Shown: in pieces, positions 1,557 to 4,258 of the stretch
How positions within the stretch are numbered: the stretch's first letter is position 1
How the letters are laid out: each line of letters begins with the position of its first letter
Origin: a bacterium
GTDB lineage: Bacteria; ARS69
DNA: 5,957 nucleotides
Assembly: GCA_025774865.1 (NCBI GenBank)
Contig: JALGZO010000610.1
Coordinates: forward strand, 1 to 5,957
Direction of reading: 5' to 3'
Position numbers and translations under genes: made by a program
Notes under the pieces: model-generated
What the model saw: the letters and a program-made list of their open reading frames with translations, nothing else
Databases searched by the model: none
What the model was told of the DNA's origin: nothing

Positions 1557-2126
1557 TCACTCGACGACGGTCACCGTGACCGGCACTGACTTCGAGACGA
1601 CGTCGTACACCGGCGAAAGGTGCTTGGCTTCCTGAACCAGGTTCTCCAGTTCCTCACGCGAAGCGTCGCCTTCGATCCGGAACTTGATCTCGATACTCTG
1701 GTAACCGGGGCGAACGTCCTTCGAGAGCCCGAGGAACCCATGAAGGTCGAGGTCGCCTTCGAGCTCCGACTCGAGCCGCGTGATCCGGATTCCACGCGCG
1801 GCTCCGTGGTAAGTGATGGCCGTGGTCACACAAGCGGCGAGTCCCGTGAGCAGGAATTCCACCGGGTTGGCGCCACGGTCTTCGCCGAGCAAGAGCGGTG
1901 GCTCGTCGGCGGCGAATACGAAGGCCTGCGCGTGGCGCCGCGGCTCGCACGCACCGTAGAACTCGTCGATGATCGTGCGGTTGAGACCGCCGTTCTCCCA
2001 CTGGTTCCGTGCCCGGAACTTGAACTTCGCGATCTCCGCGTTGCCCTGGATCGCTTCGATGGTTCCGAAGAGCTGGTCCGTATCGACTCCGTTCACGACG
2101 CCCTTGTTCTTCAGCTCCTGCGACAT
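1557..2126 (-). CDS. OsmC-family protein lacking the second (resolving) cysteine
   Basis: A 189-residue soluble protein of the OsmC/Ohr fold, a family that includes thiol peroxidases acting on organic hydroperoxides. The family core is clear: NPVEFLLTGLAACVTT (87-102) carries the expected reactive cysteine C99 at the start of the long central helix. The C-terminal part has an LxGFLGL segment (about 128-134) and SPVYDVVSKSVPVTV (171-185). At the place where OsmC and Ohr have the second Cys (CPV or CPY), this protein has Ser171. The subfamily with SPV here is widespread and its substrate is not established, so I do not call it a peroxidase. The start is the ATG at 2126, with AAGGAG 7 nt upstream. 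The open frame continues far upstream, but without a family match. It lies downstream of a sigma-54 promoter and next to a sigma-54 activator gene. Confidence 0.93.
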   Translation of the reverse strand: MSQELKNKGVVNGVDTDQLFGTIEAIQGNAEIAKFKFRARNQWENGGLNRTIIDEFYGACEPRRHAQAFVFAADEPPLLLGEDRGANPVEFLLTGLAACVTTAITYHGAARGIRITRLESELEGDLDLHGFLGLSKDVRPGYQSIEIKFRIEGDASREELENLVQEAKHLSPVYDVVSKSVPVTVTVVE

Positions 2127-2133
2127 GGTTCCT

Positions 2134-2139
2134 CTCCTT
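2134..2139 (-). promoter_or_regulatory. Ribosome binding site of the OsmC-family gene
   Basis: AAGGAG lies 7 nt before the ATG at 2126. It fixes this start against in-frame openings that extend up to 2639, which would run through the neighbouring regulatory region and into the activator gene. Confidence 0.8.
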
Positions 2140-2173
2140 TCGAGTGAGTGTGTCGATTGATGCGTCGCCATAG

Positions 2174-2189
2174 AGCAGGGCCCGTGCCA
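2174..2189 (-). promoter_or_regulatory. Sigma-54 (-24/-12) promoter for the OsmC-family gene
   Basis: On the minus strand the sequence reads TGGCACGGGCCCTGCT. Against the sigma-54 consensus TGGCACG-N4-TTGCW it matches every defined position except one (C for the first T of TTGC), with GG and GC elements at exactly the required spacing. Transcription would start near 2161-2163, giving a leader of roughly 36 nt before the ATG at 2126 that contains the ribosome binding site. The adjacent gene encodes a sigma-54 activator, which raises confidence. Activity itself is inferred. Confidence 0.8.
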
Positions 2190-2257
2190 GGTTCGTCTGC
2201 ATTGCCGAAGAGGTTGGAGAGCAACGAGTTGAGGAATCTCGGGCGAACGCGCCACCC

Positions 2258-2267
2258 TCGCGAGATC
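2258..2267. repeat. Half-site copy of the operator motif
   Basis: TCGCGAGATC here is identical to 2275-2284, which is the left part of the first palindrome, and differs by one base from 2298-2307 in the second (TCGTGAGATC). This copy does not continue into a full palindrome. It may be a weak or auxiliary binding site between the palindromes and the promoter. Confidence 0.45.
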
Positions 2268-2275
2268 CGACGATT

Positions 2276-2289
2276 CGCGAGATCTCGCG
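2276..2289. promoter_or_regulatory. Perfect 14-bp palindrome, putative upstream activator site 1
   Basis: CGCGAGATCTCGCG reads the same on both strands. Its centre is about 120 bp upstream of the predicted start of the OsmC-family transcript, in the 80-150 bp range usual for sigma-54 activator sites. A palindrome with no loop suits a dimeric Fis-type helix-turn-helix better than an RNA hairpin. Which protein binds it is inferred from the neighbouring gene. Confidence 0.6.
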
Positions 2290-2298
2290 GGCCACGCT

Positions 2299-2312
2299 CG
2301 TGAGATCTCACG
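2299..2312. promoter_or_regulatory. Perfect 14-bp palindrome, putative upstream activator site 2
   Basis: CGTGAGATCTCACG is a second perfect palindrome, sharing the GAGATCTC core with site 1 and differing only at the symmetric third position of each arm. The centres are 23 bp apart, about two helical turns, so two dimers would lie on the same face of the DNA. It ends 11 bp past the end of the activator gene. Confidence 0.6.
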
Positions 2313-2323
2313 GACGCGAAGCG

Positions 2324-4258
2324 TCAGGAGGTGCGTTTGATTCCGAGGGCCCGCATCCGAGAGCTCAGCGTCGACGGGTTCATCCCCAGGAGGCGGGCGG
2401 CCCCCTGCTCTCCGGACACGCGCCCCGAGGTCGTCTCGAGGGCGCGGACGATGTTGGCGCGCTCGAGTTCCTGGAGCTCCTGGGCGGTCTGGATGCCGGA
2501 CGGCCCTTCGCTCTCCGCCGGCACCGACTCGCGCGGCCCGGCCGAGGGCAGAGCGCCGATCAGCTCCAGTTCCGCGCCGCGTGAAACGATGAGGGCGCGC
2601 TCGATCACATTCTGGAGCTCTCTGACGTTGCCGGGCCAAGGGTGCGCTTTCAGTCGCGCGACATCCCCGGGTGAGACCGTCCGAATCGTCTGCCCCATGC
2701 GCGTCGCGAGCGTCTCGGCGAACGCGCCGGCGAGCAGAACCACGTCGTCGCCCCGTTCGCGCAACGGTGGAACGTGGATCGGGAAGACGTTGAGACGATA
2801 GTAGAGGTCTTCGCGAAAGCGACGTTCACTGATCTCGTGTACGAGGTCCTGGTTCGTGGCCGCGATCACTCGGACATCGACCTTTCGCGTGCGCGAGCTC
2901 CCCACCGGATCGAACTCCCCCTCCTGTAGCACTCGCAGCAGCTTGCTTTGCAGGTCGATCGGCAGTTCGCCGATCTCGTCGAGGAAGATCGTTCCGCCGT
3001 CCGCCAGCGCGAAACGACCCTCGCGCTGTTGCGTGGCCCCCGTGAAGGCGCCCTTCTCGTGGCCGAAGAACTCGCTTTCGATGAGCGCGGCGGGGATCGC
3101 GGCACAGTTCACTTTGACGAGAGGACGTTCCCGGCGGCCGCTGACGTCGTGAATCGCGCGGGCGACGACTTCCTTGCCGGTTCCGGTTTCTCCCGTAATG
3201 AGCACCGTTGCGTCGGTATCCGCCACCTGCTCGATTTGCGCGATGACGCCCTTCATGGCGGGACTCTCTCCGATCAAGCGGTCCGGTCCGCCGAGCGAAC
3301 GGAGCTCCTCTTCGAGGATCGTCTTCTCGACGGTCAGCGATCGGATCGTTTTCTCGGCCTTCACACGCTCGTTCACGTTGCGCAAGATGAGCGTGTAGAA
3401 GGCGCGACGGTGAATCTCGAAGCGGGAAACGGTGGCCTCGGCCGGAAACTCCTCGCCGCTCGAGTGGAGCCCGGCGAACGGGCCGGTGACCCACTCGTAC
3501 TGCTGTCCGGGCGCGCGTCCGTCGAGGTCCTGCGCGATGTCGGCCAGCGTCTTGCGCGCGCCGGGCGTCAGCAGGGAATCGAGCATCCGGCCGACGAAGT
3601 CACCGGCGGCGCAACCAAAGAGCCTCTCCGCCGCCGGGTTCATCATGGTGACGCCGAGCTCCGAGTCGAGCTCGACGATCCCGTCCATCGCGCTCTCGAC
3701 CAGGCGCCGGAGCTTCACTTCGCGCTCGCGAACGTCTTCCTCGGCGCGCAGGCGTCGCAGTTCGGCGGCGGCTCGACTCGCGAAGATCTGGAAGACAGTG
3801 AGCGTTCTGGGCTCCTCCGGCATCGGCCGGTTGTCGAGGACGGCGAGGTGGCCCAGGGTGCTCCCGTCCAGATCGTGGAGCGGGACGCCGATGTAGCTCA
3901 CGGCGCCCGCTTCCGGCAGGTCCGGATCACGCGGGTAGAGCTCGATGACCCGGTCGGGGATGTGGATCAGGCGGTCTTCCTCGATCACGGGTTCGCAGGG
4001 CGTTCCGGCGACGACGTACTCGTAGTGCTCGATTCGCTTGCCGCCGAGGAACATCGCCAGCGACCGGAGCCGACCGGCATCCTCCAGATACTCGGTGACC
4101 CACGCGCCGTAGACACCCAAGGCCTGAACCAGATTCTCGACGAGCACGCCGAAGAAACGTTCGCCGGTCTCCGCCGACGTACCCTCCAGGATCGTCCGGA
4201 GAGCGTGGTCCTCGTCGAGGCTATGGAAGGGTGGCGGCTCGCTTTCTGGCATGTTCAC
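2324..4258 (-). CDS. Sigma-54-dependent transcriptional activator (GAF-PAS-AAA+-Fis HTH)
   Basis: A 644-residue enhancer-binding protein that would use ATP hydrolysis to remodel sigma-54 RNA polymerase. Domains in order: GAF sensor (about 30-170), PAS sensor (about 182-300), a short coiled linker (about 297-322), the AAA+ domain (about 327-560), and a Fis-type helix-turn-helix (about 597-642, [22 protein letters not shown]). The AAA+ core is complete: Walker A GETGTGKE (356-363), the sigma-54-contacting GAFTGA (403-408), Walker [13 protein letters not shown] (422-433), arginine-finger region [10 protein letters not shown] (481-490) and WPGNVREL (541-548). There is no receiver domain, so control is probably by ligand or cofactor binding to GAF/PAS, as in NifA/FhlA-type proteins. 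C88 in the GAF and C216 in the PAS are possible sensing residues. The start is GTG at 4258 (4-bp GTGA overlap with the upstream gene) or ATG at 4252; neither has a strong ribosome site, which suggests coupling. The likely target is the OsmC-family gene just downstream. Confidence 0.96.

Follow-up and report, generated by a model that had tools for sequence, protein, structure and literature searches.

The window, i.e. the whole stretch of 5,957 nucleotides that was analysed, very probably carries a dedicated local sigma-54 circuit, consisting of an activator, three activator sites, a -24/-12 promoter and the adjacent osmC gene as the predicted target (Table 1). We saw directly that the parts exist, that they are conserved together at fixed spacing, and that sites and promoter are missing together from osmC loci without the activator; the argument for the circuit is one of comparative sequence analysis.

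Table 1. Positions of the activator gene, its domains, the target gene and the intergenic elements in the window.
Feature	Position	Strand	Remarks
Sigma-54 activator gene (bEBP), 642 aa	2324..4252	(-)	ATG at 4252, stop at 2324; GTG at 4258 is a possible alternative start
GAF domain of activator	about 4153-3764	(-)	Pfam GAF_2
PAS domain of activator	about 3715-3380	(-)	Pfam PAS
AAA+ domain of activator, with GAFTGA	about 3277-2561	(-)	Pfam PF00158 (Sigma54_activat), 8e-76
Fis-type HTH of activator	about 2476-2348	(-)	HTH_8, residues 593-635
OsmC-family gene, 189 aa	1557..2126	(-)	PF02566, 1e-18; 68 bits, cut-off 27.5
-24/-12 (sigma-54) promoter TGGCACGGGCCCTGCT	2174..2189	(-)	63 bp upstream of the osmC ATG; conserved in linked relatives
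Predicted activator site 1, perfect palindrome CGTGAGATCTCACG	2299..2312	(-)	
Predicted activator site 2, perfect palindrome CGCGAGATCTCGCG	2276..2289	(-)	23 bp from site 1
Predicted activator site 3, degenerate CGTCGGATCTCGCG	2259..2272	(-)	separated from site 2 by 17 bp; its centre precedes the -24 GG by 77 bp

The activator and its target gene

An earlier note on this DNA had placed the end of a sigma-54 activator gene 197 bp before an OsmC-family gene. Both genes are on the minus strand, and the gap as well as the GAF, PAS, Sigma54_activat and HTH_8 domains were confirmed; the limits that it gave for the module (2124-4258) were misplaced and exclude nearly the whole coding sequence of osmC. 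The activator is a bEBP by its AAA+ domain, in which Walker A, Walker B and GAFTGA were kept in 20 homologues, and by the Fis-type HTH (HTH_8) at its C terminus. IFLDE was also among the motifs seen in the translation, and the motifs were largely invariant across homologues. The structure model (pLDDT 84) had the order GAF, helical linker, PAS, AAA+ and HTH, in agreement with the domain calls, and its PDB matches were NtrC1, ZraR, FleQ and DmpR. In the structure search with the whole activator the AAA+ domain was matched, giving no pointer to the signal. In the GAF domain, C86 of the motif GTPC was invariant among linked activators, yet it was invariant too in related activators at other loci, and H97 alongside it was not invariant. 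The homologue alignment held no invariant His in this domain, which does not fit the NO-sensing non-haem iron GAF of NorR. Identity with NorR itself was rejected, as the NCBIfam NorR profile covers only residues 293-639 and scored 376.6 against a cut-off of 476. The window's genome has one rpoN match.

The osmC product belongs to the OsmC superfamily by the PF02566 profile and by a solved relative, the OsmC-like protein of PDB 2opl, which is of the same subfamily (full-length match, 1e-55); this entry provides a structure alone and brings no regulation or function for the subfamily. C99, the Cys of peroxidatic type, was kept, as was E90, a Glu that precedes it. In the residue table the second Cys of OsmC/Ohr proteins was Ser171 (SPV motif) in the window's protein and in every linked relative, while two-Cys homologues at other loci (L010-L012, L014-L016) served for contrast. 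Since C99 is kept and the second Cys is replaced by Ser171, the protein likely uses one-Cys chemistry. A two-Cys Ohr/OsmC thiol peroxidase was rejected because of the absent second Cys and an Ohr profile score of 25 bits against a cut-off of 89. Detoxification of organic peroxides should therefore not be assumed; the product, a one-Cys variant, probably eliminates some reactive compound or traps it.

Promoter and palindromic sites

The proposal that osmC has its own -24/-12 promoter was borne out at the level of sequence: TGGCACGGGCCCTGCT is an exact fit to TGGCACGNNNNYTGCW, with GG and GC 10 bp apart, and is the sole match in the window at no more than one mismatch, where shuffles gave 0.06 expected. 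The element is of the TGGCAC-N5-TTGC type and is conserved among orthologues, with the -12 part altered in some relatives. Two palindromes at activator-site distance had also been described; both are perfect and their distance fits, and the count has to be raised by the third, degenerate site, the position of which holds a better palindrome in relatives. In the window's 4.7-Mb genome, a fragmented MAG (92.65% complete, 8.3% contamination), TGGCACGNNNNYTGCW had four exact matches including TGGCACGGGCCCTGCT, exact CGYGAGATCTCRCG occurred at sites 1 and 2 and at no others, and the exact tandem GAGATCTC-N15-GAGATCTC was unique to the osmC locus. With three mismatches allowed, CGYGAGATCTCRCG was not above chance across the window as a whole, and the case therefore rests on the exact sites, their spacing and the relatives.

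These counts bear on whether the circuit is dedicated. The activator might drive osmC together with further, more degenerate targets elsewhere, and many single sites with one or two mismatches do occur across the window's genome; furthermore, a paralogous activator of Desulfofustis glycolicus (L081) precedes a different gene with its own -24/-12 site, indicating that targets can change. However, the window's genome has no second exact site outside the locus and no second exact tandem pair, and we consider this wider regulon unlikely, though it is the most credible of the alternatives. A circuit dedicated to osmC is thus retained here as the preferred reading.

Linked and unlinked loci

Four full-length relatives, used as queries against about 85,000 species genomes, gave 47 osmC loci. 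At 12 of the 47, an activator sharing 50-61% identity with that of the window was found immediately upstream on the same strand; these linked contigs were from Desulfobacterota and Acidobacteriota, and five acidobacterial genomes were then added by the activator search. The activator was seen as its C-terminal part only, at or near a contig edge, in L032, L035 and L042. In L041 (3895-5789; Desulfobacteraceae S15.Bin066) the linked activator was split by a frameshift, with one in-frame TAG in the matched stretch, which is either an assembly error or a decaying gene.

In the intergenic regions of the linked relatives, palindromes resembling CACGAGATCTCGTG stood in tandem, and the promoters were of the form TGGCACG...TGC. 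When the core CGANATNTCG was scored at fixed offsets of 0, 23 and 40 bp against 300 shuffles per locus, all 13 loci (12 linked and the window) carried the three-site array with 23/17-bp spacing, each above all 300 of its shuffles, and in all 13 the centre of the third site preceded the -24 GG by 75-80 bp. The array was found at none of the 34 osmC loci without the activator. For example, the OsmC proteins of L037 and L039 are placed in the tree next to the linked group from Desulfobacterota, and activator, array and promoter are all absent at these two loci. Motif and spacing were read off the first linked set and fixed before the five acidobacterial pairs were found, so that only these later loci are an independent test. 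Three of them (L083, L084 and L085) had the array at distances of 77, 76 and 79, respectively; L088 had two strong sites at a shorter distance of 62, and L086 was degenerate with no clear array. Taken together, array, spacing and promoter distance occurred at 16 of 18 linked and 0 of 34 unlinked loci (Fisher p 1.5e-11, kinship ignored). In ten aligned intergenic regions most of the invariant columns coincided with the palindromes or the -24/-12 element. Deviations among linked loci were an altered -12 GC (L031, L048 and L049), a weak -24 element (L030) and a first site that was missing or poor (L041 and L046). Linkage of activator and osmC is not absolute, since close activators without an adjacent osmC were found in L087 and, with a shorter open frame, in L093.

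A comparison of related genomes had been named beforehand as a possible refutation of the connection between activator and osmC. Its outcome, in which the -24/-12 element and equally spaced palindromes are retained at linked loci and both are missing from unlinked osmC loci, supports that predicted connection. Shuffles, genome-wide counts and relatives together rule out a chance origin of the promoter and sites. Perfect palindromes are also bound by many dimeric repressors, and they could belong to another regulator, e.g. of TetR or MarR type, with a fortuitous -24/-12 match and an ordinary osmC promoter. This is very improbable, as sites and promoter occur only where this activator adjoins osmC and no other regulator is common to the linked loci. 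Hardly credible is a pair of mere neighbours on a readthrough transcript, which their shared direction would allow, with intergenic elements that control the activator or form a terminator: the elements follow the activator gene and stand at enhancer distance from a promoter directed towards osmC, the palindromes have neither loop nor T run, unlike a terminator, and the region upstream of the activator has no such three-site array, for which reason autoregulation through these sites was rejected as well.

Distribution and history of the pair

No third gene family was broadly common to the linked loci. Among 37 genomes with this OsmC, no orthologous activator (E < 1e-130) turned up except in those with a linked osmC; G202 and G208 have incomplete linked activator copies that fall below this threshold. 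The next gene upstream of the activator (4255-5931, minus strand) encodes a beta-propeller-like protein with an FlgD-Ig/T9SS-type C-terminal domain and has a 44% identical paralogue in the genome. It is native to the family, with a 58% identical orthologue in the same-family genome G002, where the next gene is convergent with it, metallo-beta-lactamase-like as named from sequence, and neither an activator nor osmC adjoins it. These observations agree with the description of the module as self-contained, and they imply that the pair was gained by the window's lineage or lost in that of G002. The window also encodes a Ser/Thr protein kinase that has a zinc ribbon at its N terminus and runs off the contig end (2-898, minus strand), and a small, probably secreted protein with a dockerin-like DYNCDGTVDVLDLGLW repeat at its end (about 886-1487, plus strand).

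In the activator tree, a fully supported clade of 17 members comprised all 14 linked activators tested and three others, and in the OsmC tree linkage to the activator switches several times. A sample of Desulfobacterota gave one addition, a distant activator, and the repeat around G205 drew on the same group. Plasmids carried osmC relatives and no close activator, and osmC of Bradyrhizobium CB82 had no linked activator in the annotated region.

The neighbours of linked and unlinked osmC loci included genes for an FAD oxidoreductase (L029), a nitroreductase (Nitrosopumilus) and a quinone oxidoreductase (Haloarcula), which give weak functional hints. In Nitrosopumilus (L036, L040 and L043) an osmC of the same subfamily is directly before the nitroreductase gene and also has beside it, on the opposite strand, a conserved uncharacterised gene. 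To our knowledge archaea are without sigma-54, and the control of osmC must therefore differ in Nitrosopumilus. At the second-copy locus in Desulfofustis glycolicus (L081, 1498-4885), the paralogous activator is upstream of an FAD-binding (FAD_binding_4) oxidoreductase that is preceded by its own -24/-12 site, TTGGCACACTTTCTGCGA. At L029 an FAD/BBE oxidoreductase gene, 40% identical to that of L081, directly follows osmC. The two oxidoreductases are a weak hint of a shared redox chemistry of an organic compound.

Proposed mechanism

In general, dimers of bEBPs bind palindromes, and an AAA+ hexamer remodels the RpoN holoenzyme through the GAFTGA loop. For the window, we infer binding, activation, RpoN dependence, a signal and a chemistry along these lines. 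The GAF-PAS activator would be switched on by a signal acting through its N-terminal domains. Its dimers would bind the three palindromes, which have CGARATCTCG as their core, some 100-145 bp ahead of the predicted start site, and assemble there into the AAA+ hexamer. The hexamer may then remodel RpoN-RNA polymerase waiting at the -24/-12 promoter, resulting in transcription of osmC.

A broader reading, towards which we lean slightly less than away from it, is that the pair could be a transferable two-gene stress cassette, in which a GAF-PAS sigma-54 sensor with a three-site enhancer has one one-Cys OsmC as its whole regulon. The cassette would have moved between phyla, and its response to a reactive organic compound would use a chemistry other than that of the two-Cys peroxidases. 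As OsmC is the only evident target of the activator, the signal, if found, would point to the substrate of the one-Cys OsmC subfamily. Desulfofustis glycolicus DSM 9705 (L049), an anaerobe that is in culture, also has the compact predicted circuit of one activator, three sites and one target.

Comparison with known systems

OsmC-superfamily genes are under dedicated control during chemical stress, by OhrR in the case of ohr or by stress sigma factors. The window's osmC is predicted to be similar in having dedicated control, whereas a positive AAA+ activator with sigma-54 would take the role that a stress sigma factor or a repressor of MarR type has elsewhere. Positive sigma-54-based control would thus be added to a superfamily mainly known for control by repressors and stress sigma factors. 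In the open-licence literature no sigma-54 activator of an OsmC gene was found. The earlier note had called the circuit unusual, which is mostly right, except that an rpoN-dependent OsmC-like gene with a -24/-12 element had already been reported (PMC13207237). In Bradyrhizobium sp. DOA9, the OsmC-like gene BRADOA9_v1_50927 has TGGCACGCTCCATGC at -58, and its transcript was reduced in rpoN mutants (PMC13207237). As a partial precedent it is likened to the window's gene by description, and the available part of that report names neither an activator nor enhancer sites for it (PMC13207237).

The closest working parallel to the predicted circuit is NorR-norVW of E. coli. In both, a single-component GAF bEBP is beside its target, with three enhancer sites and a sigma-54 promoter, and the target is detoxifying for norVW and probably so for the window's OsmC. 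The three enhancer sites of NorR are needed for activation and provide the scaffold on which its oligomers assemble at norVW (PMC2941729). The window's system differs in the extra PAS domain of the activator and in a GAF region outside the NorR family match, as well as in its target, its site sequence and the shared direction of activator and target. A local bEBP with one target is therefore a known type of circuit, and what is new, as far as tested, is the target family, the breadth across phyla and the three-site array with 23/17-bp spacing.
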